Source of the DNA: Thiobacillus denitrificans
Lineage (GTDB): Bacteria > Pseudomonadota > Gammaproteobacteria > Burkholderiales > Thiobacillaceae
Direction of reading: 5' to 3'
Assembly: GCA_020723405.1 (NCBI GenBank)
Contig: DYIY01000001.1
Coordinates: 248,001 to 312,000, forward strand
Length of the DNA stretch: 64,000 bases
Position 1 is the stretch's first letter; every line of letters starts with the position of its first letter. The position numbers were made by a program, and so were the translations under genes. Shown here one piece after another: positions 17,053 through 36,810 of this stretch. The notes below the pieces were generated by a model that was not told the origin of the DNA, made no database searches, and worked only from the letters and a program-made list of their open reading frames with translations.

Positions 17053-17101
17053 GCCCCCCGCGGACACCCGCCGCACCCGCAGTCCGAGCGGCTGATCGCC
17101 C

Positions 17102-17998: not shown

Positions 17999-18007
17999 CG
18001 ACGGAGA

Positions 18008-18517
18008 TCAGGGCCGGCGCGGCACCAGTTCGTCGTCCAGCATGCGCTCGATGCGCGAGAACAGGTCGAAGCGGCTGAAAGGCTTGCGCAGGATGGCGTC
18101 GGCACCGTAGTCCGCCCGGGCCAGTTGCCGCAGGGACTGCTTGTTGCCGCTCATCATGATGACGGGAATGCGTCTGGCCAGAGGGTCCTTGCGGATTTTT
18201 CTGAGCACGTCGAAGCCGTTCATGCCCGGCATGCCCACGTCCAGCACCACCAGATCCGGCTTCTCGAAGCAGGCCTTGAGCAGGCCCTGCTCGCCATCCC
18301 TGGCCTGGAGGGTCACATAGCCCGCCGAGGCGAACATGTTGGCCAGCTCGGCACGGGACTTGGAGGAATCGTCGATGACCAGCACCCGGGTGCCCTGGCG
18401 GGCGTTGACTCGGCGATGGCGACGGCGCTCGTCCTCCACGCCGGCCGCGCCGCCCAGCCCGGGACGGAAGCGTCTTCCGCTACGGAAAGCCTCCTTCAGA
18501 TGGTTCAGCAGTTCCAT
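18008..18517 (-). CDS. Single-domain response regulator with basic N-terminal extension
   Basis: A 169-residue protein. Residues 1-45 are basic and Arg-rich (FRSGRRFRPG, RRRHRRVNAR), then one receiver domain runs from about 46 to 165: VLVIDDSSKSR, acceptor Asp in LVVLDVGMPGMNG, and Lys in ILRKPFS. The start (ATG 18517) has GGGAGAA 5 bases upstream. There is no output domain, so it may act by protein contact. Convergent with the AEC transporter. The kinase partner is not adjacent. Confidence 0.8.
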   Translation of the reverse strand: MELLNHLKEAFRSGRRFRPGLGGAAGVEDERRRHRRVNARQGTRVLVIDDSSKSRAELANMFASAGYVTLQARDGEQGLLKACFEKPDLVVLDVGMPGMNGFDVLRKIRKDPLARRIPVIMMSGNKQSLRQLARADYGADAILRKPFSRFDLFSRIERMLDDELVPRRP

Positions 18518-18679
18518 GTGTTTCTCCCGCGACTTATGGCGACTTATGGCTTGATGTTCGTGCTGACGTGACCGATCGATGTTCCTGTCGCCGCCAGGCG
18601 ACAAGAATATCCTTATAAACTGATGGGCCACAACACCCCGCGACGATCTTCCTGTGTGATAGCACACGCACCGGGCACG

Positions 18680-20002
18680 TCAGCCGCGGGCCACCGCCAG
18701 ACCGTCCCAATCCGTCGTGTAGCCGGCCGTCAGCCTCTCCCGGCGCATGCCCCAGGACTGGGCCACCCCCTCGGCGGCAAAGCGCAGGGTCCCCCGGCCC
18801 ATGCGTGCGTTGAGGCTGTCCAGGGCCTCCAGCAGGCGCCCCCGCCGCTCTTGGCGGGGCTCGCCCCCCACCTCGAACAGTTCCCCCTGGCGGACGCCGG
18901 CGGGCAACAGATCCACCAGCATCACCCCGGCCTTCTTGTAGCGGTAGCCAGGCTTGAAGATGCGCCCAAGTCCGGCCCGGGCGGCCTGGATGAGCCGGGC
19001 CGTGTCGGCGGTGGGCGCGGCGAAGCCCAGCAAAGTGGCCGGGTGGTATTGGGGTTCGCCGGGAATGAAGGGATTGGTGGCCAGATAAACCTGAATGGCC
19101 CCCGCCGCCAGGCCGTCCCGGCGCAGCCGCACCGCCGCCCGGGCGGCGTAGGTGGAGACGGCCTCCAGCAGTTCCGCCTTGGCGATGACCGGATGGCCGA
19201 AGCTGCGGGAGGCGATGATCTGCTGGCGGGCCGGCGGCGCCTCCTCCAGGGGGATGCAGGACAGGCCGTTCAGCTCCCGGATGGTCCGCTCCAGCACCAC
19301 GCTGAAACGGCGGCGCAGGGTTTCCGGGTCGGCCTGGCGCAGGTCCTGGGCGGAATGGATGCCCAGTTCCCCCAGCCGGGCCGCCCAGCGGGGCCCCACG
19401 CCCCACACTTCGCCCACGTCCACTTCCGAGAGGTAGCGGATCTGGTGCCAGGGGGCCAGATCCTGGAGGTTGCACACGCCTCCCTCCCGGAAGTCCGGAT
19501 GCTTCTTGGCCAGGTGGTTGGCCAGCTTGGCCAGGGTCTTGCTGGGGCCGATGCCCACCCCCACCGGGATGCCGGTCCACTGCCGCACCTGGGCGCGCAG
19601 GCGGCGGGCGTGGGCAGTGAGATCCCAGTGGCCGAAACCGGCGAAGCGGAGAAAGCATTCGTCGATGGAATAGACCTCCTGTTCCGGGCTGTAGTGGGCC
19701 ACCACGCTCATCATGCGCCGGCTCATGTCGCCGTACAGGACGTAGTTGCTGGACAGGGCCACCCCGCCGTGGCGGGCCAGCAGTTCCCGGATCTGGAAGT
19801 AGGGGGCCCCCATGCGGATGCCCAGGGCCTTGGCCTCGTCGCTGCGCGCCACGGCGCAGCCGTCGTTGTTGGACAGTACCACCACCGGCCGCCCCTCCAG
19901 GCCGGGGTCGAACACCCGTTCGCAGGAGACGAAGAAGTTGTTGCCGTCCACCAGGGCGTATTGCTGAGGAAGGCGACGGGGGTGAGGCATGGCATCAGGC
20001 AT
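18680..20002 (-). CDS. umuC: Y-family DNA polymerase V catalytic subunit
   Basis: A 440-residue UmuC. Catalytic motifs are [17 protein letters not shown] near 17 (metal Asp), YSIDECFL near 110 (catalytic D-E) and [15 protein letters not shown] near 146. The little-finger and C-terminal UmuC region ([13 protein letters not shown] near 355) is present. It performs translesion synthesis with UmuD'. Its ATG overlaps the stop of the REC-HD-GYP gene by 8 bases (ATGCCTGA). ATG 19990 is an alternative. umuD is on the same strand 13.6 kb upstream, with ten signalling genes between the two. Confidence 0.95.
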
Positions 20003-21308
20003 CGCGACAGATGTAAACGTTCATGGTGAGGTGCTCGGCGACTTCGATCTTGACGAGTTGGCTGATCACCGCCTGGTCCACCACGTAACCCTTGGCCAGC
20101 AGCATGTAGCCGTCCCGGTGTATCAGGTCCCGGGAAAGCACCATGCCGGGTTTGAGGGCTGCCGGCCGCACCGGCACTTCGTCGATGACGTGGCGAAGCT
20201 GCTCACCGAGAATTTCCGCGAACCGGTCCACTACAGCCGGGTCATAGCGCTTGCCCCGGCTCTCGACCAGATAGGTGAGGGCATCCTTGGGGCGCATGGG
20301 CTGCTGGATCAGCGTGCCGCTGATCAGACCGTCATATTCGTTGGCCACCGCGATGATGCGTGCACCCATGGGTATCGCCAGTCCCGCCAGGTGATCCGGA
20401 TAGCCGCTGCCATCGTAAAGTTCGTGATGGTGGCGAATCAGCAGCGCGGCGCCCTTGAGCTGGTCGATCTGCATGAGGGCCTGTTCACCCCGCTCGGGAT
20501 GGCGCATGAGTTCGCTGCGCAATCCCGAGGACAGCGTGCTCAGGGGCCGGTCCAGCGCCTCGTCGGGCAGGCCGATCTTGCCGATGTCGTGCAACAGGGC
20601 AGCGAACAGCACGTCCTGCTGCGCCGCCTCGTCCAGATCCAGCATCCTGGCCAGGATGCGCGCATGGTCGGCAACCCGCCGGGCATGGCCGGACAGGTTC
20701 TTGCCACGCATCTCCACCAGACCGGAAAAGGCCTGCACCGTGGCAACGAACCCTGTCTTCAGCTTGCCATGGGCCGCCTGCACCAGTTTGAGGGCTTTCT
20801 TCAATTCCTCGGTACGCGCAGCCACCTTTTGTTCCAGCCCGGCATTGAGGGCGCGCAGTTCGGCGTTTTGGGCCTCCACCACGGAATTGAGGCGGCCGTT
20901 TTCCCGTTCCAGGCGCTTGCGTTCCAGGGCCTCACGCACGATGAGCACGATTTCCCGATCGTCCCAGGGCTTGTTGATGTAACGATAAACCTCGCCCCGG
21001 TTGATGGCGGCAACTGTTGATTCGATGTCCGCATAACCGGTCAGCAGAATGCGGATGCTATCCGGCCAGCGCAGGCGGACCTGTTCCAGGAAGCGGGCAC
21101 CATCCATCTTGGGCATGCGCATGTCGGAAATGACCAGGTCAATCCGTTCCTGTTCCAGGACGGCCAGTCCCTGCTCACCACCCTCTGCGGTAAGGATGCG
21201 GTAATCGTGGGGGCGAAACAGCCGTTTCAGGGAAGAAAGGATCGACGGTTCGTCATCGACCAACAGAAGCGTGGCGGCGGGCGCCTGGGCAGAGACATGA
21301 TCATTCAT
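19995..21308 (-). CDS. REC-HD-GYP response regulator, c-di-GMP phosphodiesterase
   Basis: A 437-residue RpfG-like protein. The receiver spans about 12-125 ([11 protein letters not shown]; acceptor in [22 protein letters not shown]). A coiled coil follows to about 165, then the HD-GYP domain at about 175-330 with [12 protein letters not shown] and [15 protein letters not shown], and a C-terminal extension. The catalytic HD and GYP residues are intact, so it should hydrolyse c-di-GMP once phosphorylated. Start ATG 21308 overlaps the stop of the kinase upstream by 8 bases, and its own stop overlaps umuC. Confidence 0.93.
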
Positions 21309-22374
21309 GGTCGGCATCCTCATCCACGCTGGAATGGAGTGGCAGATTGACACGGAATACGGTGCCCCGGCCAGGTTCGCTCTTCACCTCGATGTGGCCA
21401 CCATGCTTGTGCACGATCCCGTAGGAGATGGACAGCCCGAGGCCCGTCCCTTTGCCCACCGGTTTGGTGGTGAAGAAAGGGTCGAAGATGCGGGTAAGCA
21501 GGGCTTCGGGAATTCCACAGCCGGTATCGGCGACCTCCACCCATACATCATCGCCCTCAACGCCGGTACGGACGGTGATCACCCCCTGCTTGTCGATGGC
21601 GTGGGCGGCATTGACCAGCAGGTTCATGAATACCTGGTTCAACTGCGACGGCAGACAGCGCACCATCGGCAAATCCCCGTACAGCTTCTCCACCCTGGCC
21701 TTGTACTTGATCTCGTTGTTGACCACGTTGAGCGTGGAGTCCAGTCCCTTATGCAGGTCGGCCAACACCCATTCCCCCCGGTCGGCATGGGAGAAATCCT
21801 TGAGGTCCTGGACAATGCGGCGCACCCTGGCGATGCCATCGCTGGATTCGTCCAGCAGAGCGACCACGTCGGCCTTGAGATAATCGAGCTCGGCGGCGCG
21901 CTTGGCGGCCAGGACATCTTCCCGTTCCCCGCCGTCCGGCAACAGGGGTTCCGCCCGCTCATAGGCATCCAGCACGGCAAGCATCTGCCGCACGTAGTCC
22001 CGCAGAGAGGCCAGATTGGAGTTCACATAGCCGATGGGATTGTTGATCTCGTGGGCGACCCCGGCCGCCAGTTGGCCAATGGAGGCCATCTTCTCCGATT
22101 GCAGCAACTGGTTGTGGGCCTCCTCCAGCCGTTTGATCAGGGCCGCCTGCTCAGCCTCGGTTCGTTGCTTTTCGACGAGTTGCCGCTGCAATTCCCGGTT
22201 GCGCTCCGTCAGTTCGCGGGACATCTGGTCCAGGGCGTGCTCCACCAGACGGCGGTCCGCGTCGGCGTGCTCGTAGGCTTCGCCGATGGCCTGGAACAGG
22301 GCATGCATGGCCTCCGGGATGGCGGTGGCATCGCCCAGGTGGCGCCGGATCTGGCGTTCGAGCAAAGGGTGCAT
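21301..22374 (-). CDS. Soluble histidine kinase
   Basis: A 357-residue cytoplasmic kinase without membrane helices. The N-terminal 50 residues are helical, a coiled coil reaches about 90, the H-box is MASIGQLAAGVAHEINNPIGY near 95-115, and the HATPase domain has the N-box VFMNLLVNAAHAI, DTGCGIPE and GKGTGLGLSISYGI. The same subfamily (ZraS/NtrB-like) recurs in the 678-residue kinase of this operon. It lies between FIST and REC-HD-GYP, with a 1-base gap and an 8-base overlap. The pair order suggests FIST as input and the HD-GYP receiver as output. Confidence 0.9.
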   Translation of the reverse strand: MHPLLERQIRRHLGDATAIPEAMHALFQAIGEAYEHADADRRLVEHALDQMSRELTERNRELQRQLVEKQRTEAEQAALIKRLEEAHNQLLQSEKMASIGQLAAGVAHEINNPIGYVNSNLASLRDYVRQMLAVLDAYERAEPLLPDGGEREDVLAAKRAAELDYLKADVVALLDESSDGIARVRRIVQDLKDFSHADRGEWVLADLHKGLDSTLNVVNNEIKYKARVEKLYGDLPMVRCLPSQLNQVFMNLLVNAAHAIDKQGVITVRTGVEGDDVWVEVADTGCGIPEALLTRIFDPFFTTKPVGKGTGLGLSISYGIVHKHGGHIEVKSEPGRGTVFRVNLPLHSSVDEDADHE

Positions 22375-22375
22375 C

Positions 22376-23506
22376 TCAATCCTCGCTCAGGGTGGTGATG
22401 GTCATGGTCTGATTGTGCAATTCGCAGCGTGCCGTGGGGGTGTAAGGTGAAATTTCCCCATAGGAGTAGAACCCGGCCAGGACGGTCTCCTCCCCCAGCA
22501 CATCGCGCACGCCCTCCACCTCCTCCTCGATCCGCTGGGCCAGCACCAGCTTGCGGGCCACGCAACTGATCAGCAGGGCCAACTGGGGGCGGCTTTCCGC
22601 CATGCCGAACCGGGCCTGGCGGGCGGCACCCGAGGCACCTTCCACCAACCGGTCGAAATTGGCGCGCATCATGCGCGCGTACTGCCCTTCGGGAACGTCG
22701 CCGGCAAAGGTCATGGACTGATCCGCCTCGTTCACGGCCAGGACCGCGCGCACCAGGGCCGCGTCCGCCTCGCCTTCCCTGTGCAGGGCCAGCGGGAACA
22801 ACAGGGCGGAAGCAGGCAACTGGGCCGCATGTTCGCCCAGATATTGCTTGTACAGATCCAGGGCGGAATGCCCATCCAGCTCATAAAGCACATTGCCCCT
22901 GGAACGGGTGATGAGACGATCCGGACCGAAGGGGTCCCAGCCCCCCAGGCAGCCATGGCCGATCCGGATACGCGACCCGTAGAGGCCGAGTGCCGCCACC
23001 CCATGCTCCACCGGCGGACCATCGGCGATCACCAGGGTACGCTGGAAGCGGGCGCCATCCCCGGTCAGACCACCGGTCAAATCCACCCCTTCCGGAAGGG
23101 CCGACTTGAGTCCATCCACCAGTTCCGTTCCGTTCACGTCCAAACCGGTGGTCAACACCAGCACGTGGGCAAGATCCTCCCGGGGAAGCCGCGCGGCCAG
23201 TGCCTGTCCGGCGGCATGGCTGGCAGCGGCGTCAGGCACCGGCTGACTGGCAATATGAAGGCGGGTATCCGCGAAACGGATGGCGGTCGCCACAATGCTG
23301 TCGTCGTACACGCCCGCCCCCAGGATTTCTCCCGCCGTGGAACCGCCAAACAGAAGCGCTCTGGGATAACGCCGTTGCAAATCGGCCAGAACGTCCTCGG
23401 TAAGCAGGTCGGTGCCACCAAAGACAAGGACCAGGCCTGCATCCGTCAGGACAGCCGGTTTCGTCCAGCCGGTGCCGGGCAACCATTGCGTCTGTTCGAT
23501 CTGCAT
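22376..23506 (-). CDS. FIST-domain sensory protein
   Basis: A 376-residue soluble protein with FIST N and FIST C domains. Family-like features are LVLVFGGTDLL near 30, FGGSTAGEILG near 55, GLTGDGARFQ near 145, and the C-terminal stretch ALLISCVARKLVLAQRIEEE, followed by ETVLAGFYSYGEISP and CELHNQT. FIST proteins are predicted to bind small ligands, possibly amino acids, and are often paired with kinases or chemoreceptors. The start has GAGGAGAA 6 bases upstream. It sits between two histidine kinases of one subfamily, so it may feed either. Confidence 0.9.
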   Translation of the reverse strand: MQIEQTQWLPGTGWTKPAVLTDAGLVLVFGGTDLLTEDVLADLQRRYPRALLFGGSTAGEILGAGVYDDSIVATAIRFADTRLHIASQPVPDAAASHAAGQALAARLPREDLAHVLVLTTGLDVNGTELVDGLKSALPEGVDLTGGLTGDGARFQRTLVIADGPPVEHGVAALGLYGSRIRIGHGCLGGWDPFGPDRLITRSRGNVLYELDGHSALDLYKQYLGEHAAQLPASALLFPLALHREGEADAALVRAVLAVNEADQSMTFAGDVPEGQYARMMRANFDRLVEGASGAARQARFGMAESRPQLALLISCVARKLVLAQRIEEEVEGVRDVLGEETVLAGFYSYGEISPYTPTARCELHNQTMTITTLSED

Positions 23507-23528
23507 GTTTTCTCCTCGTTGGATGCCT

Positions 23529-25565
23529 TCACGACGGTGTGGCTGCATCGGGGATGTGGGTCACCGGCAGGGTGATCCGGAAAGTGGTGCCTTTGCCCAC
23601 TTCGCTGGACACTTCGATGCGGCCGTTGTGCTTCTGAACGATGCCATAGGCCAGGGATAGCCCCAGGCCGGTACCCTGCCCCACCGGCTTGGTGGTGAAG
23701 AAGGGATCAAAGATGCGGACGAGGACGTCTTCGGGAATACCTTTGCCGGTATCGGATACTTCAACCCAGACATCGTCCCCTGAGCAGCCGGTGCGCACGG
23801 TAATGGTGCCCCGCGGCCCCTCGATGGCATGGGCGGCGTTGACCAACAGGTTCATGAACACCTGGTTCAATTGCGAGGGCAGGCATTCGACTTCTGGAAT
23901 GTCTCCATAATCCCGTACCACCTCGGCCCGGTACTTGATCTCGTTCTGGACGATGTTGAGGGTACTGTCCAGCCCACGATGGAGATCGGCCTTCTGCCAA
24001 TCCGGCGAACTATCCAGACGGGAGAAATCCTTCAGGTCCTGGACGATCTTGCGCACCCGTGTGATGCCTTCCCGGGACTCGTTCATGAGTACGGGGATGT
24101 CCTCCTTCAGATAGGGCAGATCCAGGCGCCGCCTGATTTCCGCCACCTCCGCGCAAGCCTCCGTTTCAGCGGCCAGTTTCCGCTCGGCGGCCTCATAGAC
24201 CTCGATGATGCTGAACAGGTCACGGATGTAGTTCTCCAGGCTGCCCAGGTTGGAATGGACGTAGCCGATGGGATTATTGATCTCGTGGGCGACGCCGGCG
24301 GCCAACTGGCCGATGGAGGCCAGCTTCTCCGATTGCAGCAACTGGCCCTGGGCTTCCTGGAGCTGGCGGTGCAAGGCTTCCAGTTGCTGGTACTGCCGCT
24401 TCAGTTCAGCCTGGGCTTGGTTGCGCGCGGCAATATCCTCCTCCAGTTGGCGCAAGGCCAGGGAAAGCTCTGCGGTACGTTCATCCACCCGCCGCTGGAG
24501 TTCCTCGTTGCTGTCCTGGAGGGATGCCTCCATCTGCTTGCGGGCACTGATGTCGGTACGGATGGCGATGTACTGGTAAGGCTTACCGGCTGTATCCAGG
24601 AACGGCACGATGGTGGAATCCACCCAGTAATGCCCGCCATCCTTGCGCCGGTTGCGTATTTCCCCATGCCAGACCCGACCTCCGGCTATGGTGCGCCACA
24701 TGTCCTCGAAGAACGCCTGCCCATGCAGGCCGGAGTTGACGAGCCGATGGTTCCGGCCCAGCAATTCCTCCCGGGTATAGCCGGAAATCCCACAGAACTT
24801 GTCGTTCACATAGGTGATGTCGCCTGCGGTGTCGGTAATGCTGACGATCGCGTGTTCATCCAAAGCAAGCTTTTGTGCCCGCAGTTCCTCTTCGTTCCGT
24901 TGCAGCATCCCCATCAGCCGCCCCTGCCGGGTGATCACCACTGCCGCGATGGCAAGGGCCAGCAACAGGGCCACGGTGGCACTGGCAAGCATCAATCCCT
25001 TGGCCAGGCGATAGGCTTCCTTCGCCTCGGCGGCTGCATCCTGGCCATTGCGAATCTGAAAATCCAGGAAGCGCCGCAATTGCACCGTGGCCAGGTTTTG
25101 GGCCGGAATGGCCTGGTCGATCAACCGGCGCTCGGCTTCCTCCCGCCTGTCGGCCAGGGCCAGATCCAGCACATCATCCTGCAAGGCCGACCCACGGGAG
25201 GTATGCCGCCCCTGCTCGTCCAGCATGGCCCGCTCCTCCCGGGAAAGGGACATGGTCAGCAGTTTTTCCCGGGCGCCCCGGAACCGCCCGGCCAATTCGT
25301 GGAAGCGGGGCACCATGGCGTCCCGCTCGAACGGGTCTGGTTCCTGGAGGATGGCGTGCAACTGCAATGCCCGCTCCCGGGCGGCGATGTACATTTCCGC
25401 CGCCAGGCGGGCACGCTCGTTGTGGTCGTCCACGATATGGATGATGGCCCCGTTCATCGCGCCGAGGTAATGCACGCCCACGCCCGCCAGAGCCAGCAAC
25501 AGGCTGATGACCATGGCAAAACCGGCCAGCAGGCCATGGGACCCGGGTTGGCGCAACGGTCTCAT
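23529..25565 (-). CDS. Membrane PAS histidine kinase
   Basis: A 678-residue kinase. A membrane helix lies at about 12-34, a helical periplasmic domain at about 35-190 (four-helix-bundle type), and a second helix near 190-213. A PAS/PAC domain follows at about 225-345 (VSITDTAGDITYVNDKFCG; NRRKDGGHYWVDSTI), then a long coiled coil, the H-box (LAAGVAHEINNPIGYV) near 435, and an HATPase end (GQGTGLGLSLAYGIVQ). The kinase core is a close paralogue of the 357-residue kinase in the same operon. It is 22 bases from the FIST gene and 12 bases after HDOD. Confidence 0.92.
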   Translation of the reverse strand: MRPLRQPGSHGLLAGFAMVISLLLALAGVGVHYLGAMNGAIIHIVDDHNERARLAAEMYIAARERALQLHAILQEPDPFERDAMVPRFHELAGRFRGAREKLLTMSLSREERAMLDEQGRHTSRGSALQDDVLDLALADRREEAERRLIDQAIPAQNLATVQLRRFLDFQIRNGQDAAAEAKEAYRLAKGLMLASATVALLLALAIAAVVITRQGRLMGMLQRNEEELRAQKLALDEHAIVSITDTAGDITYVNDKFCGISGYTREELLGRNHRLVNSGLHGQAFFEDMWRTIAGGRVWHGEIRNRRKDGGHYWVDSTIVPFLDTAGKPYQYIAIRTDISARKQMEASLQDSNEELQRRVDERTAELSLALRQLEEDIAARNQAQAELKRQYQQLEALHRQLQEAQGQLLQSEKLASIGQLAAGVAHEINNPIGYVHSNLGSLENYIRDLFSIIEVYEAAERKLAAETEACAEVAEIRRRLDLPYLKEDIPVLMNESREGITRVRKIVQDLKDFSRLDSSPDWQKADLHRGLDSTLNIVQNEIKYRAEVVRDYGDIPEVECLPSQLNQVFMNLLVNAAHAIEGPRGTITVRTGCSGDDVWVEVSDTGKGIPEDVLVRIFDPFFTTKPVGQGTGLGLSLAYGIVQKHNGRIEVSSEVGKGTTFRITLPVTHIPDAATPS

Positions 25566-25577
25566 GGTTTCCCCCCC

Positions 25578-26420
25578 TCAAGCGGAAAGCAACGCGCAGT
25601 AACTCTCATGCTCCCGAGCGACTCCGGGCAGCATTTCCGTCAGGCCGCGCTCATCCAGCCCCAGCCGTTTCCAGGCATCCATATCGATCCGTGGCACCAT
25701 GGCCCTGGCATCCCGTGCCAGATCCAGGCCATGGGCCAGGGCATCGGCCACGTGGGCCACGTCGGCATAGCCCGACGCTTCCGCCTGGATCGGATCATGA
25801 TGATGGGCCACGGCCTGGACGATTTCGGACGGAAAACGCCAACGCTCCGTCACCATCCGCCCTACCTGGGCATGATCGAACCCCAGGATGCTCCGCTCGG
25901 CTTCACGCATGGGGCAATCCCTTTCGTCCCGCCAGGCCAGTGCCTCGGCGTACTGGACTGGACGGGCCGTTACGAGCAGCAGTTGGCCGATGTCATGTAG
26001 GAGCCCCGCAGTGAACGCCGTTTCCGCCTCCAGGCCGCAATGCCGGGCCAACGCCCTGGCACACAACCCGGTGCCCATGCCATGGCGCCAAAAGACGGCC
26101 AGATCGATTCCGCTTCCTTCCGGCGGCACGAAATAGCCCGTCAGCGAAGCCGCCAGCACCAAGCTACCCACCGCTCTGAATCCGAGCACCACGATGGCGT
26201 CGTGGATGCTTGCCACCCTGTGCTGGATACCGAAGAAAGGGGAGTTGGCCACACGCAATACCCGTGCGGCCAGGGCCTGGTCCCCGACAATGCCGGCCAC
26301 CAACTCATCGACGCTGACGGATTCCTTTTCCAGGGATCGGATCAGTTCCGCCACCACGGTAGGCAACGACGGCATCCCTTCCACGTCGGCAAGAACCGCC
26401 TCCAGCGTCAATTCGCTCAT
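25578..26420 (-). CDS. HDOD-domain protein
   Basis: A 280-residue protein that is one HDOD domain (about residues 10-210). Family features are LPTVVAELIRSLEKES near 19, VARVLRVANSPFFG near 52, VLGFRAVGSLVLA near 78 and FTAGLLHDIGQLLL near 137. HDOD domains resemble HD phosphohydrolases but usually act as non-catalytic signalling modules beside c-di-GMP and chemotaxis genes. Here His-Asp is kept in LLHDIG. Its start overlaps the stop of the preceding small gene by 4 bases. Confidence 0.9.
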   Translation of the reverse strand: MSELTLEAVLADVEGMPSLPTVVAELIRSLEKESVSVDELVAGIVGDQALAARVLRVANSPFFGIQHRVASIHDAIVVLGFRAVGSLVLAASLTGYFVPPEGSGIDLAVFWRHGMGTGLCARALARHCGLEAETAFTAGLLHDIGQLLLVTARPVQYAEALAWRDERDCPMREAERSILGFDHAQVGRMVTERWRFPSEIVQAVAHHHDPIQAEASGYADVAHVADALAHGLDLARDARAMVPRIDMDAWKRLGLDERGLTEMLPGVAREHESYCALLSA

Positions 26421-26737
26421 GGCATCCGCCCCAGGTGGTATTCGAAAATGGCCTGATACAAGACCCGGTCGGCCTCCCCATCCCCACCATGGCGGAACAG
26501 ACGGGCCAGCCTTGCCGCTACGGCTTCCCGCCAGGCGGTCTCATCCGGGGCATCCTCGCCATCCGGCGGGGTGACGACGACCCAAGCCACGCCCCGGCGC
26601 AGGCAGGATGCCAGGTGGGATTCGCCAAGCACCGTGCCCTCCGGCAGGAGGACCACGCCATTGGCATCACGCAATGCCTCGCCCAGGCACATACCCGGCC
26701 TGACCTGTTCGATGGGCATTTTCACGCCGCCGGCCAT
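26417..26737 (-). CDS. Stand-alone DUF3391-like (HD-GYP N-terminal type) protein
   Basis: A 106-residue protein. Residues 8-60 (IEQVRPGMCLGEAL, VVLLPEGTVLGESHL, RGVAWVVV) match the small beta-rich domain normally fused to the N-terminus of HD-GYP phosphodiesterases. The rest is a helical tail with no HD-GYP domain. Start ATG 26737 is preferred because GAGG is about 10 bases upstream. ATG 26746 overlaps the previous stop (ATGCTGA) and is also possible. It may be a detached regulatory domain that acts with the HDOD or HD-GYP protein. Confidence 0.7.
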   Translation of the reverse strand: MAGGVKMPIEQVRPGMCLGEALRDANGVVLLPEGTVLGESHLASCLRRGVAWVVVTPPDGEDAPDETAWREAVAARLARLFRHGGDGEADRVLYQAIFEYHLGRMP

Positions 26738-26739
26738 CT

Positions 26740-27537
26740 TCAGCATACCTCGCAGGGCAACAGGGCCAGCAGTGCTCCCCGCGCGGCGGAACGCCCCCCC
26801 ATGGGGCTGTGGACAACCCGGTAGTGGCGGTCGGCAAGGACCACCCGCCCGGGTATCACTCCGCCTCCCTGAAACCAGCCGTCCATTTCACTGGCCAGTG
26901 CTGTCAGGACACTTCGTCCCAGCAGGGGGGCGCCATCCCTGGAAACCCCCATGTCCGCCGCCGAATTGGCCAACGCAATCATCCCCGTCTCGTCCACGCC
27001 CACGATGGGCCAGGGAATCAACTGGATCACCTCCTGGAGAGTTTGCAACACCGCCTCCACCTGCCGCGCCTGGCGTTCCCGCTCCGCCACCAGCACCTGC
27101 AATTCCGCGTTGGCCACTTGCAGGGCCTGGGTCAGGCGCAGATTCTCGTCGGCAATCTCCTTGCTGCGGAATGCCTCCCGGATCTGCTGGCGCAACTGAT
27201 CGTCGTCCCAGGGCTTGGTCAGGAATTTGTAAATGGCCCCCTCATTGATGGCATCGGTGATGAATTGCAGATCGGTATAACCGGACAGGACGATACGCAC
27301 CGTTTCGGGATGCGTCTTCCTCACCCGGCGCAGGAACTCCACACCACTCATGCCAGGCATACGCTGATCGGACAAGACCACATCCACGTGCTGTTCAGCC
27401 AGCAGCGACAGGGCCTTCACCGGATCATCGCAGGCCAGGATGGTGTAGCCGTCCCGACGTAGCAGACGTTGCAGGGCGGAAATGATGTTGGGTTCATCAT
27501 CCACCAGCAGCAGTGTCTGTTTGCCCGCCCCGGTCAC
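26740..27537 (-). CDS. Response regulator with coiled coil and short PAS-like tail
   Basis: A 265-residue protein. The receiver is at about 8-125 ([14 protein letters not shown]; acceptor in DVVLSDQRMPGMSG; LTKPWDDDQ), closely related to the receivers of the REC-HD-GYP protein and the C-terminus of the GGDEF-EAL protein of this operon. A coiled coil follows (about 130-175) and then a PAS-like region (QLIPWPIVGVDETGMI). There is no enzymatic output. The ATG overlaps the stop of the GGDEF-EAL gene (ATGA), so translation is coupled. Confidence 0.85.
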   Translation of the reverse strand: MTGAGKQTLLLVDDEPNIISALQRLLRRDGYTILACDDPVKALSLLAEQHVDVVLSDQRMPGMSGVEFLRRVRKTHPETVRIVLSGYTDLQFITDAINEGAIYKFLTKPWDDDQLRQQIREAFRSKEIADENLRLTQALQVANAELQVLVAERERQARQVEAVLQTLQEVIQLIPWPIVGVDETGMIALANSAADMGVSRDGAPLLGRSVLTALASEMDGWFQGGGVIPGRVVLADRHYRVVHSPMGGRSAARGALLALLPCEVC

Positions 27538-30500
27538 GCCGCACCCCTCTGGCCGGCCGGCTGGGCCGCTTCCCGATCCCGTTCGCGGGGTTTGACCACC
27601 GCTTCGTGGTAGCGGAAAGCATCCCGGATGTGGGCACGCATCAGTTCATCCTCCCAGGGCTTGATCAGGAATTTATAGATGGCCCCCTGGTTGACGGCCT
27701 GGATGATGGTATCCAGTTCCGTGAACCCCGAGAGCACAATGCGCACCGTATCCGGGTGGAGATCCTTGACCCGGCCCAGGAATTCGGTGCCACTCATTCC
27801 CGGCATGCGCTGGTCGGAGAGAATGACCTGGACGGTGTTGCGGGCCAGCAGATCAAGCCCCTCATGGGCGCTTCCCGCCGTCAGTATGCGGTACCCCTCA
27901 TTGCGCAGCATGCGCCGCAGTGCAGTCAGGATGTTGGGCTCGTCGTCCACCAGGAGCAGGGTCCGCTGTTCAGTCCCATGGATCTCCACCACAGGCAAAG
28001 CCCTGTTCTCCCGCAACATTTCGGTGAACATTTCGGCGGGTACCGGCCTGCTGAACAGGAAACCCTGCATCTGGTCGCAACCCTGCTTCCTGAGATAGGC
28101 CAATTGAGCCTCGGTTTCCACACCCTCTGCGACCACCTTGAGGCGCATCCGCTGGGCCAGTCCGATGACGGCGGCGACGATGCCTGCCGAATCCGGCTCA
28201 GTCACGATGTCGCGTACGAAGGACTGGTCGATCTTGAGGATATCGATGGGTAGGCGGCTCAGATAGGCCAGGCTGGAATAACCCGTACCGAAGTCATCCA
28301 GGGAAAGTCTCACGCCCCGTGACTTGAAACGCCCGAGCAGCCGCGTGGCCGCTTCCGGTTCCTCCATCAGCATGCTCTCGGTCAATTCCAGTTCCAGGTG
28401 CCCCAACGGTACACCAAAGCGTTCCAGGGCCTGGGCAACCGTGTCCTCGAAGTCCTCGGCGCGGAACTGGAGGGCGGAAACGTTGACCGCGACCCGGGCA
28501 TTGCCAAACCCCATGTCATGCCAGATGCGGATCTGGCGGCAGGCTGTCTCCACGACCCAGGCACCGATGGGCACGATGAGTCCGGTTTTCTCGGCCAGGG
28601 GAATGAAACGGGACGGCGGCACCGCTTCGCCGTTGCGCGCCCAGCGCAGCAAGGCTTCCGCGCCGACGATGAGGCCACTGTTCAAATCCACCTTGGGCTG
28701 GTAGTGCAGGGTGAATTCCCCCCTGTCCAAGGCCCGGCGCAAGTCCGCTTCGAGTTCCAGGATCGCCAGCGCATCCGCGTTCATGTCGGCGGTGTAGAAG
28801 CAGAATCGTCCCCGACCCCGGTCTTTGGCCCGGTACATGGCCACTTCGGCGTCCCGCATCAACTCGGCCACATCGCCACCATCATCGGGAAAAACGCTGA
28901 TGCCGATGCTGGCCCCCAGATACACCTCGTGCCCCCCCGAACACGAGAACGGGGCGGCCAACTCGGAGAGCAGGTCCCGCGCCACGTCCGCAGCCGCCTG
29001 GGATTCCTGCATGGACTCCAGCACAAGCATGAATTCATCGCCCCCCAACCGGCCCAGGGTGTCCTCCTTGCGCACCCGGGCGCCCAGCCGGTCCACTACC
29101 GCCAGCAGCAGCCCGTCGCCCGTCTTGTGGCCCAGACTGTCGTTCACGGTCTTGAAATGGTCCAGATCGATGTACAGCACGCCGATCCGCCCGCCATTGC
29201 GCCTGGCCCGCTCCAGGGCATGGGCCAGACGCAGTTGCAGCAGTGAACGGTTGGGCAGATCGGTGAGGGGGTCATGGTGGACCAGATGGTCGAGCCGCTC
29301 CTCACTGAAACGGATCTGGCTGAGGTCGGTGAACACACCCACGAAACACCGATCAAGGACGCCGTGCCCGTTGTCCACCCGGCTGATGGTCAGCCATTGG
29401 GGATAGACCTCCCCGTTCTTGCGCCGGTTCCAGATCTCCCCCTGCCAGTAACCGGTGTCTTCGATGCTTTTCCACATGGCCTGGTAAAAGGCGGGATCAT
29501 GCCGCCCGGAGCGGAGGATGTTCGGGCGCTTATGCAGGACATCGTCCTCGCCGTAGCCGGTGATCTTCGAGAACGCCTGGTTCACCGCCTGGATGTAACC
29601 GTGGACATCGGTAACCATGACTCCGTCGCGGGTGTTGTCGAACACCATGGCAGCCTGCCGCAGCTTCTCCTCGGCCCGTCGGCGCTCGGTGATGTCGAAG
29701 AATGTGGCCACCGAGCCCACGACACGGCCATCGCGGTGCATGGGATAGGACCAGTACTCCACTGGCACGGGCTGCCCATCCTTGCGCCAGAACACCTCGT
29801 CGTCGCGGTGGATCGCCTCGTCCCGAAGGTAGGCCCGGTAGATGAGGCATTCCTCCGCAGGATAGGGGCTGCCATCGGCATGGGTATGGTGGATCAGATC
29901 ATGGATCCGCCTGCCGATCAGCTCCTCGGCCCGGTCGTAGCCGAGAATGCGCAGGCAGGCCGGATTCACGAATGTGCAGGTGCCCTCGATATCCACGCCA
30001 TAGATGGCTTCCGCAGCGGAATCGAGCAGCAGCCGCGCCCGGGTCTCGCTTTCCTGAAGGGATATCCGTTCCCGGAGCAGGTCGGCCCGGTGGCAGTTGC
30101 TCTCGATGGTGGCGGGCAATTTGTGCAGATAGCCCTCGCTCTTCACCAGATAGTCATCCACCCCGAGAAACAGGGCTTCGGCTGCCACTTCCTCGCTACC
30201 CTGGCCGGTCACCAGGACGATGGGCAGTTCCACGCCCCGCTCGCTGCGCAGAATCCTGACGAGGTCCAGGGCGTTGCATCCGGGTAGCAGATAATCCAAA
30301 AGCACCACGTCGATATCCGGGGGCAGTGCGCCCCCCACGGGAAACCGATCCAGTACGCCCTGGGCTTCCGCCGCCACCTGGAGTTGGATATGGGGCGCAT
30401 GCTGGGCCAGATGGCGCCGGGTCAGGTTGGCATCGGCCGCGTTATCCTCGGCATAGAGTACCCGGATGGGGCGCGCCCGCCGGAATGCGGCGGAATGGAA

Positions 30501-30866
30501 ATGGGCCATCGCCCGGGCCAGAATTCCCGGCAGATTTTCGACGGAATACTTTCCCTTGATGAGATAGGCATCCGCCCCCGCCTTGAGGGCGGCTGACACG
30601 GCCTCCTGGTCACCCGTTCCCGTCAGGATGACCACGGCCAGGGGCAGGTTCCGGGACCGGATATGGCCCAGCACCTCCATCCCCGAACCATCCGGCAACG
30701 TCAGATCGCAAAGTACCGCATCCACCCCGGAAATGTTTTCGAGGCGCTGACGTGCAACCGTCAGATTCGTGATCACTTCCACAGCAATATCAGGCGCCAG
30801 TCGCGCCAAGGCACCACGGATGAGCTCCGCGTCGATGGGGTCGTCCTCAATGTAGAGTATTTTCAC
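27534..30866 (-). CDS. REC-REC-PAS-PAS-GGDEF-EAL-REC hybrid c-di-GMP regulator
   Basis: A 1110-residue protein. Two N-terminal receivers (about 1-120 and 140-260), two PAS domains (about 275-395 and 400-520), and GGDEF (RLGGDEFMLVL near 607, preceded by RKED as an I-site) are followed by EAL (GAEALLRW near 737; ELTESMLMEE; DDFGTGYSS) and a third receiver at the C-terminus from about 967. Both enzymatic motifs look intact, so it could make or break c-di-GMP. The GTG at 30866 is chosen because GGAGAGG lies 4 bases upstream and the receiver begins at once (VKILYIEDD). An upstream in-frame extension to 31022 overlaps the previous gene and lacks domain character. Confidence 0.92.
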   Translation of the reverse strand: MKILYIEDDPIDAELIRGALARLAPDIAVEVITNLTVARQRLENISGVDAVLCDLTLPDGSGMEVLGHIRSRNLPLAVVILTGTGDQEAVSAALKAGADAYLIKGKYSVENLPGILARAMAHFHSAAFRRARPIRVLYAEDNAADANLTRRHLAQHAPHIQLQVAAEAQGVLDRFPVGGALPPDIDVVLLDYLLPGCNALDLVRILRSERGVELPIVLVTGQGSEEVAAEALFLGVDDYLVKSEGYLHKLPATIESNCHRADLLRERISLQESETRARLLLDSAAEAIYGVDIEGTCTFVNPACLRILGYDRAEELIGRRIHDLIHHTHADGSPYPAEECLIYRAYLRDEAIHRDDEVFWRKDGQPVPVEYWSYPMHRDGRVVGSVATFFDITERRRAEEKLRQAAMVFDNTRDGVMVTDVHGYIQAVNQAFSKITGYGEDDVLHKRPNILRSGRHDPAFYQAMWKSIEDTGYWQGEIWNRRKNGEVYPQWLTISRVDNGHGVLDRCFVGVFTDLSQIRFSEERLDHLVHHDPLTDLPNRSLLQLRLAHALERARRNGGRIGVLYIDLDHFKTVNDSLGHKTGDGLLLAVVDRLGARVRKEDTLGRLGGDEFMLVLESMQESQAAADVARDLLSELAAPFSCSGGHEVYLGASIGISVFPDDGGDVAELMRDAEVAMYRAKDRGRGRFCFYTADMNADALAILELEADLRRALDRGEFTLHYQPKVDLNSGLIVGAEALLRWARNGEAVPPSRFIPLAEKTGLIVPIGAWVVETACRQIRIWHDMGFGNARVAVNVSALQFRAEDFEDTVAQALERFGVPLGHLELELTESMLMEEPEAATRLLGRFKSRGVRLSLDDFGTGYSSLAYLSRLPIDILKIDQSFVRDIVTEPDSAGIVAAVIGLAQRMRLKVVAEGVETEAQLAYLRKQGCDQMQGFLFSRPVPAEMFTEMLRENRALPVVEIHGTEQRTLLLVDDEPNILTALRRMLRNEGYRILTAGSAHEGLDLLARNTVQVILSDQRMPGMSGTEFLGRVKDLHPDTVRIVLSGFTELDTIIQAVNQGAIYKFLIKPWEDELMRAHIRDAFRYHEAVVKPRERDREAAQPAGQRGAA

Positions 30867-30973
30867 ACGCCCTCTCCGGGTGGATCGCGCTGGGTCCTGA
30901 ATACACCAGGCTTGAAGCCTCCTCAGGGTTTCCCGGATATCGGATGCACCACCGGCAAACTTGAGTGCATTTC

Positions 30974-31420
30974 TCAGACACCAGCAACCCAGGACATCCT
31001 CTCTGACCCCGGAGACGCGCATGCCCGCGACAGCACCTGATCACACATCCCGAGGCACGCCACGGCTTCCATGCATTCGGCAAAGTCCAGGGGTTTGCGC
31101 ACCAAGTTGTTCGCACCGTTCGCATAGCACGCGAGACGGTCTCGTTCCTCGTCGGAGGAGATAAGGATGACCACCGGCAACAATGCGGTGCGCGGCGTTG
31201 CGCGCAGGCGCGAGAGCACTTCCAGGCCGGGCGGGCGGGGCAGACCGCAGTCCAGCAGCGCGATCGCTGGCAACGGGGCCGCCAGCGGCAGCAGAACGTC
31301 CAGGGCCTGCGGTCCATCCCTGGCCACATGGATGGAATTGGCCAGGTGGGCCCGGCGCAAGGCGCGCAGGGTCAGCAATTCATCCTGGGTGTTGTCCTCC
31401 ACAAGCGGGATCGTACGCAT
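30974..31420 (-). CDS. Single-domain response regulator (Rcp-like)
   Basis: A 148-residue protein that is one receiver: PLVEDNTQDELLTLRALRR near 7, acceptor Asp in AIALLDCGLPRPPG near 58, and Lys in VRKPLDF near 108. The EDN...DELLTLRAL type resembles phytochrome-linked Rcp1 receivers. Start ATG 31420 is preferred over GTG 31426 because GGGGAGG is 7 bases upstream. It overlaps the end of the 704-residue kinase gene, so the pair is translationally coupled and this protein is its likely phosphate acceptor. Confidence 0.87.
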   Translation of the reverse strand: MRTIPLVEDNTQDELLTLRALRRAHLANSIHVARDGPQALDVLLPLAAPLPAIALLDCGLPRPPGLEVLSRLRATPRTALLPVVILISSDEERDRLACYANGANNLVRKPLDFAECMEAVACLGMCDQVLSRACASPGSERMSWVAGV

Positions 31421-31422
31421 GC

Positions 31423-33534
31423 TCACGCCTCCCCTTCAGCGGATACGTCCCTGCCTGCCGGGGCCAGGCTGAAACAGAACGTGGCACCCCGGCCCGGCTG
31501 AGCTGTAACGTGGATTTCACCGCCATGGCGGTGGACGATGCGGTGCACGGTGGCCAGACCGATGCCGACGCCGGGAAACTCATCCTGGCGATGCAGCCGC
31601 TGAAAGGGCTTGAACAGGCGACCGGCATGAGCCATATCGAAGCCGACACCGTTGTCGGCCACGCAAAACTTCCGCTGCCCATCCTGCTCCGTACCGTACA
31701 GATGGATCTCCGCCGGCAGCGCATCACGGGTGTACTTCCAGGCATTGGACAGCAGGTTGCGCAAGAGCGCCTCGATCATCCGCTCGTCCCCATTTGCCGT
31801 GAGGCCGGGCTCCACAAACCATGCCACCTGGCGCACGGGTTCTCCGCGCAGCAGATCCGCCAGCACCTCTTCCGCAAGAAGGGAAAGGTCCACCGCATCC
31901 CTGCGGATATCCCCCCGCGTCACGCGGGACAAGGTGAACAAACCGTCGATCAGGGTCCCCATCCTTCGTGCGGCAACGACGATCTGGGCAAGATCTTCAC
32001 GGGCTTCCCCATCCAGCCGATTGCCGAAGTCCTCCTCCAGAGCCTGGGCGAAGCCGGCCATGGCACGCAATGGCGCGCGCAGATCATGCGAAACCGCATA
32101 AGCAAAACTGTCGAGTTCGGCATTGGCTGCTTCCAACTCGGCCGTCCTGGCGCGCACCCGCGTCTCCAGATCCCGGTTTAGGGCGGCGAGTTCTGCCTCG
32201 GCGCGTTTGCGCGCAGTGATGTCCCGGGTCACCACCACGGCCAGTATCTGCTCGCCCCGGCCATTCCGCACGGGCGCCCCACTGAAGCTGAAATACCATT
32301 CCCGGCCGGTATCGCGGCGACGGCCGCGCAGTTCCAGTTCGGACAGGGTCTCGCCGCGCAGGATCCGACTGATTGGCCATTCATCCACCGGAACCGGTTG
32401 GCCATCGGGAAAGGCCAATTCGTACAGATCCGCATACAAGGCAAGGTTGGCCTTCATCGCCTCGGGAGAAGGGAAGCCGTTGATGCGCGCCTGGGCCTCA
32501 TTGATCAGAAAAAAATTCCCCTCCATGTCGGACACCACGATGCCATCCTGGATGGACTGGAATACGGCCTCAAGCTGTGCCTGTTCCCTGGATGCCTGCT
32601 CCTTTGCCTGTTTGCCCTCACTCACGTCCAGGACGACACCGATCCTGGCCGGCGCGCCCTGAAATTCCAGATCCCGGCCATGGGCTTCCACCTCCACGCA
32701 GCCGCCATCGCGGCGCATCCCGGCAAAACTGAAACGCATGGCTCGACCTTCCTTCCCTCCCCCCGGGTACAGGAACCCGATCACCCTCTCCCGGTCTTCC
32801 GGCGCGATCAACGCCATCACAGGCAAACGGTCGATCAGGGCCTGGGGCGCGGGATAACCGAAAATGTCGCAGAACCCCTGGTTCACGTAGCGAAAACGCC
32901 CCCCCTGAATGATGTACATCCCCACCAGGGACTGCTCCACCAGCGCCCGGAAACGCATGTCAGCCGCCTTGCGTTCCGCGCGGCGCAGACGTTCGTGGGT
33001 GAGGCTGAAAAGCACGCCCATGGCAAAAAACACCCCGATGGAAAACAGGGAGATGGGAGATTCCAGGGTGAAGGAAAGACGGGGAGGGATGAAAAAAAAC
33101 CAGACCAGGATCGTGGACAGAAAGGTGGCCGCCACGCCGCTCCCCAGTCCCCCGATCCAGGAACTGAGAAAGACCGCCGGAAAAAAAAGGAGCCACACGT
33201 AGGGCTTGATGAAATCCCAGAACCCCCATTGCACGCCGAAAGCGACCAGGGGCAGGAGGATGGCCAGGAACCGACGCTGGGCGGAAGTTGCATGCCGGGT
33301 TTCCGCTGGCGGCAGGTCATCCCGCTCTGGTGGCACCGCCTGCAAAGCCAGAAACAGCAGGGCCGCCGTCACGATGATGAACAGCAGCCCCTTGGCCATG
33401 GACAGCCGTAACGCAGCCTCGGCATCCGCAACATCCGCCAGCAGCCGGTCGGAAAACACGATCCATAACATGGAACACCCGGCATAACCCACCGTCATAC
33501 CGGCGATGTATCGGGACCGCTTCGTCATGGCCAT
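31423..33534 (-). CDS. Membrane PAS histidine kinase with DUF4118-like sensor region
   Basis: A 703-residue kinase from ATG 33534 (AAGGA 6 bases upstream). Six hydrophobic segments in the first 200 residues include a DUF4118/KdpD-type block (WLLFFPAVFLSSWIGGLGSG, then LVWFFFIPP). Two PAS/PAC domains follow (about 225-345 and 350-480), then an H-box of the phytochrome-kinase kind (SFAYAVSHDLRAPLRAMAGF) and HATPase (FPGVGIGLATVHRIVHRHGG). It is the first signalling gene after umuD, with a 107-base gap. An upstream in-frame extension to 33603 has no ribosome site. Confidence 0.9.
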   Translation of the reverse strand: MAMTKRSRYIAGMTVGYAGCSMLWIVFSDRLLADVADAEAALRLSMAKGLLFIIVTAALLFLALQAVPPERDDLPPAETRHATSAQRRFLAILLPLVAFGVQWGFWDFIKPYVWLLFFPAVFLSSWIGGLGSGVAATFLSTILVWFFFIPPRLSFTLESPISLFSIGVFFAMGVLFSLTHERLRRAERKAADMRFRALVEQSLVGMYIIQGGRFRYVNQGFCDIFGYPAPQALIDRLPVMALIAPEDRERVIGFLYPGGGKEGRAMRFSFAGMRRDGGCVEVEAHGRDLEFQGAPARIGVVLDVSEGKQAKEQASREQAQLEAVFQSIQDGIVVSDMEGNFFLINEAQARINGFPSPEAMKANLALYADLYELAFPDGQPVPVDEWPISRILRGETLSELELRGRRRDTGREWYFSFSGAPVRNGRGEQILAVVVTRDITARKRAEAELAALNRDLETRVRARTAELEAANAELDSFAYAVSHDLRAPLRAMAGFAQALEEDFGNRLDGEAREDLAQIVVAARRMGTLIDGLFTLSRVTRGDIRRDAVDLSLLAEEVLADLLRGEPVRQVAWFVEPGLTANGDERMIEALLRNLLSNAWKYTRDALPAEIHLYGTEQDGQRKFCVADNGVGFDMAHAGRLFKPFQRLHRQDEFPGVGIGLATVHRIVHRHGGEIHVTAQPGRGATFCFSLAPAGRDVSAEGEA

Positions 33535-33615
33535 GGAAATCCTTGCCGTCCGGCCATCATCTGCCTGCCTGACATGCATCCTCCCGCACGGTGCATTCAC
33601 CACTCCACCTTAGCC

Positions 33616-33632
33616 CCGGAAACCCCTTCCGG
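33616..33632 (-). terminator. Weak hairpin between umuD and the signalling genes
   Basis: CCGGAA (33616-33621) pairs with TTCCGG (33627-33632) around a 5-base loop, just past the umuD stop on the minus strand. No T-run follows, so it probably only attenuates, and read-through from umuD into the kinase gene is possible. Confidence 0.3.
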
Positions 33633-33641
33633 AAAGCAATC

Positions 33642-34229
33642 TCAGCGCAGCTTGCGCACCACACCCTTCACCACACCCCAGATGGTCAGCTCCTGGCCCG
33701 GCCGGGGCTCGATGGGGGGGAAGTCGGGGTTGCGCGGCAGGAGGCGCACCACGCCGCCCTCACGGTGCAGTTCCTTCACCGTCAACTCGCCGTCGATGAC
33801 CGCCAGCACGATGTCCCCGTGGCGGGGCTCCAGGGCCCGGTCCACGGCGATGACGTCACCGTCCAGAATGCCCGCGCCCACCATGGACTGGCCCTTCACC
33901 CGCACGTAGAAGGTGGCCGCCTCGTGCTCCACCAGATAGTCGTTGAGGTCCAGGCGCCCCTGGGCGTAGTCTTCGGCCGGGCTGGGAAAACCGGCGGGCA
34001 CCCGGGCGGCGAACAGAGGCAGGGCGAGAGGGGATTCCCGGGTGGGCTCCCCCAGGTATTCCACCATGCCCCAGGAACGGAAACGGGGTTCTACCGGCGC
34101 AGCGTCCGGCGGCGTGCGCAGGAAAGCCCGCACCGCCTCCACCCGGCTGGCGGGCACCCGAAGGGTCTTGCTGGGTTCGGCGCCGGGCTTGCGCCCGGCC
34201 CCGGGACGGCGTCCGCCATGGGGTGGCAT
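33642..34229 (-). CDS. umuD: UmuD-like LexA-family protein (polymerase V subunit)
   Basis: A 195-residue S24 peptidase-like protein. The N-terminal 75 residues are basic and unusual (PHGGRRPGAGRKPG). The cleavage site is Ala-Gly in VPAGFPSPAEDY, as in UmuD, followed by the catalytic Ser in VKGQSMVGAGI and Lys in LTVKELH. RecA-stimulated self-cleavage gives UmuD', which joins UmuC. It lacks the LexA winged-helix. No E. coli-type LexA box (CTG-N10-CAG) was found by eye in its leader. It lies divergently from the exonuclease gene across DnaA-box repeat copy B. Confidence 0.9.
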   Translation of the reverse strand: MPPHGGRRPGAGRKPGAEPSKTLRVPASRVEAVRAFLRTPPDAAPVEPRFRSWGMVEYLGEPTRESPLALPLFAARVPAGFPSPAEDYAQGRLDLNDYLVEHEAATFYVRVKGQSMVGAGILDGDVIAVDRALEPRHGDIVLAVIDGELTVKELHREGGVVRLLPRNPDFPPIEPRPGQELTIWGVVKGVVRKLR

Positions 34230-34313
34230 GGGGTTCTCTTGATTGTTGTGACGATATTCAAGTTATCATGGGCCAGAGGGGAAACCAAGGGGATTTTTTA
34301 CCCATTTTCATCC

Positions 34314-34594
34314 CCACTTATGCACACGGCGGGTCTTGACAGCCCCACCCCGGCAGAGTAGCCGGATGCTCCCAGGGGTTTTACGCAAGCCCATGTTTTT
34401 TAATGTGAAATCTACTGCATAAAATTTATGCCGTGGGTATAAGCTCCCGTTTCTTAAGCTTTTTTTACGGATATGCGCGAACTTTTCCACATCGTTATCC
34501 ACAGGAGTGGTGGACAACCCGGAAAGCCCCTTCCGGATGAAGTGGTTCATTCGTACTTCTGCCAAAGCACTTTAACAATCGCTGCCAGGTGGGG
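34314..34594 (+). repeat. DnaA-box repeat, copy B (281 bp)
   Basis: The same-length, same-orientation partner of 10333-10613; identity over the right-hand 145 bases is about 70% or more by eye. It has three exact fits to TTWTNCACA: TTATGCACA (34318-34326), TTTTCCACA (34483-34491) and TTATCCACA (34495-34503). It has an A/T-rich middle (34385-34430) and a GCTTTTTTTAC block. Copy B lies between the divergent umuD and exonuclease genes and ends just before the latter, so it may also hold their promoters. Confidence 0.8.
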
Positions 34595-34621
34595 ATGGCG
34601 TACACCGGGCCTCCTGTTTCC

Positions 34622-36028: not shown

Positions 36029-36096
36029 ACTTGGGCGCCTGTCACAGACCGGCCTTATCCTTCCCTCCCACCATCGTCCCCTTCCGGAGCTCCCCC

Positions 36097-36801: not shown

Positions 36802-36810
36802 TGATGTCCC

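Follow-up and report, generated by a model that had tools for sequence, protein, structure and literature searches.

A cyclic di-GMP signaling cluster between umuD and umuC in Thiobacillus denitrificans, behind a candidate UmuDAb-like operator

The Acinetobacter UmuDAb operator is described, in the available portion of its source, as TTGA/TCAA arms around a GTnAC core with 4-nt spacers (PMC11332147). NosK, a member of the NosP-NosK-NosR nitric oxide (NO) operon, is a kinase that lacks a sensor domain and carries an H-E-I-N-N motif, according to the accessible text of PMC12570481; FIST domains perhaps sense NO, as stated in the excerpted text of a review (PMC8846402). Features resembling both systems occur in the window analyzed here, a stretch of 64,000 nucleotides from Thiobacillus denitrificans (G000:C42:248001-312000; GenBank assembly GCA_020723405.1, contig DYIY01000001.1; genome of 4.15 Mb in 42 contigs). 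The window carries umuD and umuC on the same strand, 13,643 bp apart, and the interval from one to the other is filled by ten signaling genes on that strand, mostly overlapping or abutting (Table 1). This gene order is a direct observation: a first-pass annotation of the window had reported a split of 13.6 kb with ten same-strand genes between, and the positions and strands of the open reading frames (ORFs) bear it out. The direct succession from umuD to umuC, as in a umuDC operon, is thus absent from the window, even though both proteins score above the cut-offs of their NCBIfam family models.

Gene order was compared in an order sample of 399 genomes, 126 of which have a umuC match at E 1e-60, with 144 umuC copies listed; the 118 copies that have a umuD on the contig among the matches listed were judged, and the other 26 are undecided. 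In 102 of the 118, umuD is the immediate upstream neighbor, on the same strand and no more than 300 bp away. The remaining 16 comprise the window itself, eight gaps of 0.3-10.4 kb, and seven pairs more than 30 kb apart. Within the family, represented by 117 genomes, the umuD and umuC matches are separated by 7-24 bp in the five closest relatives with this umuC (G011, G013, G015, G027, and G044; 65-76% identity). Both comparisons agree with the first-pass annotation, which had held the two genes to be normally adjacent in related bacteria. The arrangement is exceptional and was observed in one genome only among those judged; a plasmid search with the HD-GYP/umuC junction matched 399 of 72,556 records, none of which covered 80% of the query.

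The smaller gaps differ in kind. Two of the eight (G181, G419) have umuD on the other strand. In G259 (L246), an RNase_T exonuclease gene sits between umuD and umuC, three genes in a row, and in G452 (L247), the place is taken by an SRAP (SOS-associated peptidase) gene; other genes can therefore come between umuD and umuC. In G157 (L245, G157:C4), 10.4 kb separate umuC from a umuD on the same strand, the genes in the interval lie on both strands, and this umuD may be unrelated to that umuC rather than its partner; the gap in G447 contains no ORF of 80 aa. No second case of signaling genes between umuD and umuC was seen among the gaps of G157, G259, G452, and G447, with domain tests of the gap genes in G259 and G452 only; the gaps of G383, G181, G419, and G439 fell outside this gene inspection. 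The G383 and G439 gaps equal that of G259 in size. An RNase_T exonuclease gene also adjoins the window's umuD, divergently (34589-36028), and an SRAP gene is divergent from umuD in G011 (L108). In G016:C23 (L248), a umuD with a umuC fragment is separated from a longer umuC copy by two phage-integrase-family genes and their neighbors, a pattern that looks like the insertion of a recombinase-trio element.

Alignment to two of the close relatives reveals an empty site, again by direct observation. Local DNA alignments of G013 and G015 to the window stop at 17983, just before the permease stop codon (17998), and restart at 34300 (G013) and 34309 (G015). The window is colinear with both genomes over a decarboxylase-like gene, 15515, a cNMP-binding gene, 16567, and the permease gene; in both, the exonuclease gene on the plus strand follows the permease gene directly, and umuDC is located elsewhere with umuD and umuC adjacent. 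The extra block is about 16.3 kb long and holds the receiver gene at 18008, umuC, the signaling cluster, and umuD with its candidate operator, ending about 70 bp upstream of umuD. Relative to these genomes, the extra part is the whole block rather than the ten genes alone, which the first-pass annotation had not foreseen.

It is almost certain that the cluster was inserted between umuD and umuC; umuDC may have arrived before the cluster and been split by it later, or the unit may have moved as a whole, already split. No integrase domain was found among the scanned proteins of the block, and base composition in 1-kb steps has no sharp edge (60.8-65.8% G+C at 20-34 kb; 60.7-71.9% over the rest of 12-40 kb). 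Outside the run, the umuDC and cluster loci compared share no gene order with the window, so neither parent site is traceable. An assembly artefact joining unrelated pieces would produce the same picture, and the assembly is a draft in 42 contigs. However, the contig is 407,822 bases long, and umuC, the FIST gene, and the gene for a 109-aa protein are each single-match in the genome; no repeat is therefore seen that could have misjoined the sequence twice, each time precisely at the end of a gene, and we regard such an artefact as hardly credible.

The signaling genes have a life apart from umuDC. Three genomes of the same genus (G020, G021, G023) carry seven of the ten in the same order at 43-76% identity, namely the EAL-REC end of the large protein, the receiver (REC), the 109-aa protein, HDOD, two kinases, and HD-GYP. 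Their clusters have no counterpart of the first kinase, the single receiver, the REC-PAS-GGDEF part, or FIST, and umuDC is absent from the stretch fetched around each. Named genomes were scanned with the receiver at 26740; the best 80 of 565 confirmed matches were taken as loci, some cut by contig ends. Among these 80, HDOD was found in 69, HD-GYP in 61, an EAL match in 64, and the kinase in 70, and HDOD, kinase, and HD-GYP shared one strand in 49. The 109-aa gene was present in 20, and in relatives stands between the REC and HDOD genes; FIST was present in two (L138, L177). None of the 80 contained umuC, and a single umuD-like match (L151) was on the other strand. We take the carriers to be mostly Betaproteobacteria (Duganella, Massilia, Rhodoferax, Azospira) with a few Gammaproteobacteria. 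Since seven of the genes occur without umuDC in three genomes and none of the 80 loci has umuC, the cluster is a signaling unit of its own, and that of the window is an enlarged form of this independent unit, not an SOS invention. The first-pass annotation had suggested a signaling module inserted in, or built into, an SOS operon. The module does lie inside a usually adjacent umuDC pair, but its dedication to SOS is not supported; these findings come close to a point that the annotation had named against its own suggestion, signaling genes just as common in relatives away from umuDC.

The evidence for a damage response lies at the head of the run. UmuD has a C-terminal peptidase with a cleavage site and S/K residues (PF00717; alignment to UmuD chain 8gmt_B, residues read by eye), preceded by about 65 extra N-terminal residues. 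These hold a GRK..RVP pattern common to the relatives and no Pfam domain; the same pattern appears in UmuDAb residues encoded by primers given in the accessible part of PMC4807011 (translated by hand). The 23-bp dyad upstream of umuD has the arms and core of a UmuDAb-type operator, with spacers of 5 nt instead of 4. It occurs at the same position in G011 (exact), in G013 and G015 (variant right arm), and in G027 (variant core).

The exact box occurs once in the genome, upstream of umuD. In the family, it has 14 sites in 14 of 117 genomes, and at eight of these a umuD match begins no more than 36 bp downstream; a reversed control has three sites. The tie of the box to umuD, likewise observed directly, was also drawn from 34 loci, the best 30 of the family search plus four order-sample loci fetched for their gaps; these rows are related to one another. 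A slightly looser box stands upstream of 14 of the 23 umuD genes with the N-terminal domain (window included; the domain of L054 is degenerate) and of none of the 11 S24 genes without it. The rate in random windows, 3.4%, is an overestimate of chance, since the true sites are counted in it. Besides the window, the boxed loci are L033-L036, L041, L043-L046, L049, L050, L246, and L249. With one mismatch allowed, a related box pattern gives 11 sites in the window's genome, the exact one at umuD and ten others (L235-L244), against one in the reversed control; by our estimate, about 18 one-mismatch sites would be expected for 12 fixed bases in 4.15 Mb at equal base use. The canonical SOS box CTGTN8ACAG, used as a control site, has 15 genome sites and 14 in its reversed control, with no enrichment. 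By analogy with UmuDAb, UmuD probably represses its own gene until damage lifts the repression, and such repression at the box itself appears likely. Given the UmuDAb-like N-terminal domain and operator and the tie of the box to umuD, a damage-released promoter probably heads the 12-gene run. With such a box ahead of umuD in this family, self-repression by UmuD may well extend beyond Acinetobacter; literature searches covering Burkholderia and Betaproteobacteria found, by title and abstract opening, no paper that describes it.

We propose that, in this lineage, umuD and umuC were parted by the insertion of a betaproteobacterial c-di-GMP cluster with a NosP/NosK/NosR-like trio, and that the composite from umuD to umuC, with one receiver gene, came to stand as a 16.3-kb block behind the permease gene. 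In this proposal umuD would keep its own promoter and operator and repress that promoter; DNA damage would lead to RecA-assisted self-cleavage of UmuD and so release it, and transcription would pass through the signaling genes into umuC. Damage would then raise the GGDEF-EAL and HD-GYP enzymes, their kinases, and DNA polymerase V (Pol V) together. The combined explanation of insertion, damage-released promoter, and read-through has a probability of roughly 0.5. Nowhere in the run is the spacing wider than from umuD to the first kinase, at 38 nt from a GTG start (33603) or 107 nt from an ATG (33534), the ATG having the better ribosome site by eye. A scan of 17000-36900 found no sigma-70-like promoter, compared with a mean of 3.0 in shuffled sequences, and terminator-like sites at chance level (11, shuffle mean 11.4). 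The overlapping and abutting genes, together with the lack of a sigma-70-like site, count for one run headed by the umuD promoter, and read-through from there to umuC is somewhat favored.

The chief competitor is neutral rearrangement, by which the cluster landed here by chance and the genes have private promoters, in the 38-107 nt gap or inside genes; umuC would be driven by a signaling promoter or poorly expressed, with no coupling of damage to c-di-GMP. It would account for an arrangement found in one genome only, for cluster genes that occur elsewhere without umuDC (G020, G021, G023, and the named loci), and for other material between umuD and umuC, such as the integrase-family genes of G016. 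It sits less easily with a run of 12 genes that all share one strand and for the most part overlap or abut, with both junctions at gene ends, with intact reading frames and motifs, and with the absence of a sigma-70-like site from 17000-36900. We consider it a serious contender, somewhat short of an even chance.

Several observations weigh against the proposal of a damage-released run. The arrangement was seen in a single genome, so a function has no support from conservation. There is room for another promoter between umuD and the first kinase, where one weak terminator-like site overlaps the umuD stop, in keeping with the weak hairpin reported in the first-pass annotation; the scan covered sigma-70-like sites only, and promoters inside genes are possible. 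Among the five closest relatives, G044 gave no match to the operator, and of the 23 domain-bearing genes only 14 have the box. The spacers differ from those of Acinetobacter, and DNA binding by UmuD is inferred from resemblance; the ten one-mismatch sites may be further UmuD targets. The genome also has one further S24-family match, with Peptidase_S24 alone in Pfam, so that control by LexA is possible. The coupling to SOS suggested in the first-pass annotation gains a likely damage-responsive promoter with a UmuDAb-like operator, but loses the idea of a dedicated module. A physiological change in c-di-GMP upon damage is less likely than not, and it is slightly more doubtful still that a UmuD-repressed, RecA-released promoter drives all 12 genes, so that damage would induce an NO/c-di-GMP phosphorelay together with Pol V, bypassing LexA.

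The three genes nearest umuC, side by side, encode the FIST protein, the NosK-like kinase, and the HD-GYP protein; the last belongs to the NosR family, scoring well above its model cut-off. The kinase has only HATPase above cut-off (HisKA is partial and below it), carries HEINN, and adjoins the FIST gene, as expected of NosK, a sensorless kinase with an H-E-x-x-N motif beside a FIST gene. The FIST protein has FIST and FIST_C domains but falls below the NosP equivalog cut-off (NF041558, 61.6 bits against 450); it is NosP-like, not NosP by that model, and it had no match among PDB sequences at E 0.1. Its closest matches are proteins of genus g7 (60-64%), where the gene is also beside HDOD and 109-aa genes; matches within its own genus are 43-50% identical, the exceptions being G029, where a piece of 31 residues reaches 71%, and G028, whose second match is short and weak. 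The FIST gene may have a history different from the rest of the cluster. The ten genes of the first-pass annotation are confirmed with their domains, the label of the 109-aa ORF apart, and the trio, which resembles an NO/c-di-GMP relay, is an addition that it did not foresee.

This trio invites a further explanation, that of a selected operon for SOS and nitrosative stress in which a NosP-like sensor and Pol V were joined since NO damages DNA; it would sense NO, adjust c-di-GMP, and bypass lesions. The placement of the FIST, NosK-like, and NosR-family genes beside umuC fits it, as does the finding that two other genomes of the order have genes of a DNA-repair type, for an RNase_T exonuclease and for SRAP, in the space from umuD to umuC. 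No second genome with the arrangement was found among those judged, however, and the FIST protein misses the NosP cut-off, its heme/NO binding being only putative. We consider this explanation improbable.

Pfam confirms the domain labels of the first-pass annotation, apart from "DUF3391-like", which has neither Pfam nor NCBIfam backing. The 109-aa ORF so labeled has no match to either at E 0.001, and the label is backed solely by a likeness, seen by eye, to the C-terminal portion of the HD-GYP protein. The H-boxes of all three kinases and the GGDEF, EAL, HD, and GYP motifs are intact as read by eye. The 8-base overlap of umuC with the HD-GYP stop codon, reported earlier, is true for the first ATG of umuC; a second ATG at 19990 avoids it, and the first residues are not conserved. 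A search of the genome for the IMS family (E 0.001) returned the window's umuC as its single match, so no separate DinB-like gene was detected.

Table 1. Features of the umuD-umuC interval and its surroundings (positions in the window)
Feature	Coordinates	Strand	Basis
Extra block relative to the empty site of G013 and G015	17998..34300	.	Local DNA alignments
Receiver protein, about 160 nt downstream of umuC, within the extra block	18008..18517	(-)	ORF and domain search
umuC: IMS, IMS_C, DUF4113	18680..20002	(-)	Pfam; NCBIfam NF002955 446 bits, cut-off 431
REC-HD-GYP, NosR family, HD and GYP motifs present	19995..21353	(-)	NCBIfam NF053512 559.9 bits, cut-off 400
Histidine kinase, NosK-like, no recognized sensor domain, H-E-I-N-N motif	21301..22374	(-)	Pfam HATPase; sequence
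FIST/FIST_C protein, NosP-like	22376..23548	(-)	PF08495, PF10442; NCBIfam NosP model 61.6 bits
Histidine kinase, PAS and HATPase, 4HB_MCP-like match below cut-off	23529..25565	(-)	Pfam
HDOD protein	25578..26420	(-)	Pfam
109-aa protein	26417..26746	(-)	No family match; found again in relatives' cluster
Receiver protein (REC), marker for the cluster genome scan	26740..27537	(-)	Pfam
REC-REC-PAS-PAS-GGDEF-EAL-REC	27534..31022	(-)	Pfam; GGDEF and EAL motifs read by eye
Single receiver protein (REC)	30974..31426	(-)	Pfam
Histidine kinase, DUF4118-PAS-PAS-HisKA-HATPase; possible start 33534	31423..33603	(-)	Pfam
umuD, 195 aa, GGRRPGAGRKPG...RVP extra N-terminal domain	33642..34229	(-)	Pfam PF00717 (Peptidase_S24); NCBIfam NF007621 154 bits, cut-off 110
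UmuDAb-like operator TTGA-N5-GTCAC-N5-TCAA, 23-bp dyad, 9 bp upstream of the umuD start	34239..34261	(-)	Sequence; relatives

Should a single transcript cover the run, the levels of c-di-GMP enzymes and of an NO-type relay would be set directly by damage, and mutagenesis would be linked to choices governed by c-di-GMP, for example, biofilm or motility. The parts are known; literature searches found, by titles and abstract openings, no description of their combination. The betaproteobacterial EAL-REC/REC/HDOD/kinase/HD-GYP cluster, for which we found no name, shares seven genes in the same order with the window, whereas the clusters of G020, G021, and G023 are without the first kinase, the single receiver, and the REC-PAS-GGDEF part; among the best 80 named loci, umuC is absent and FIST rare. 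As far as the available portions of PMC11332147 and PMC4807011 describe it, Acinetobacter UmuDAb is likewise a long UmuD, with GRK and RVP motifs in an additional N-terminal domain, and has an operator with the same arms and core; the window differs in its longer spacers and in the umuC that follows in the same direction. The NosP-NosK-NosR operon, in the accessible text of PMC12570481, matches the window in having FIST, a sensorless H-E-I-N-N kinase, and a REC-HD-GYP protein of the NosR model side by side. There the HD-GYP catalytic motifs are degenerate, whereas in the window they are present; the window's FIST protein scores far under the NosP model, and its trio sits in a ten-gene cluster inside umuDC.

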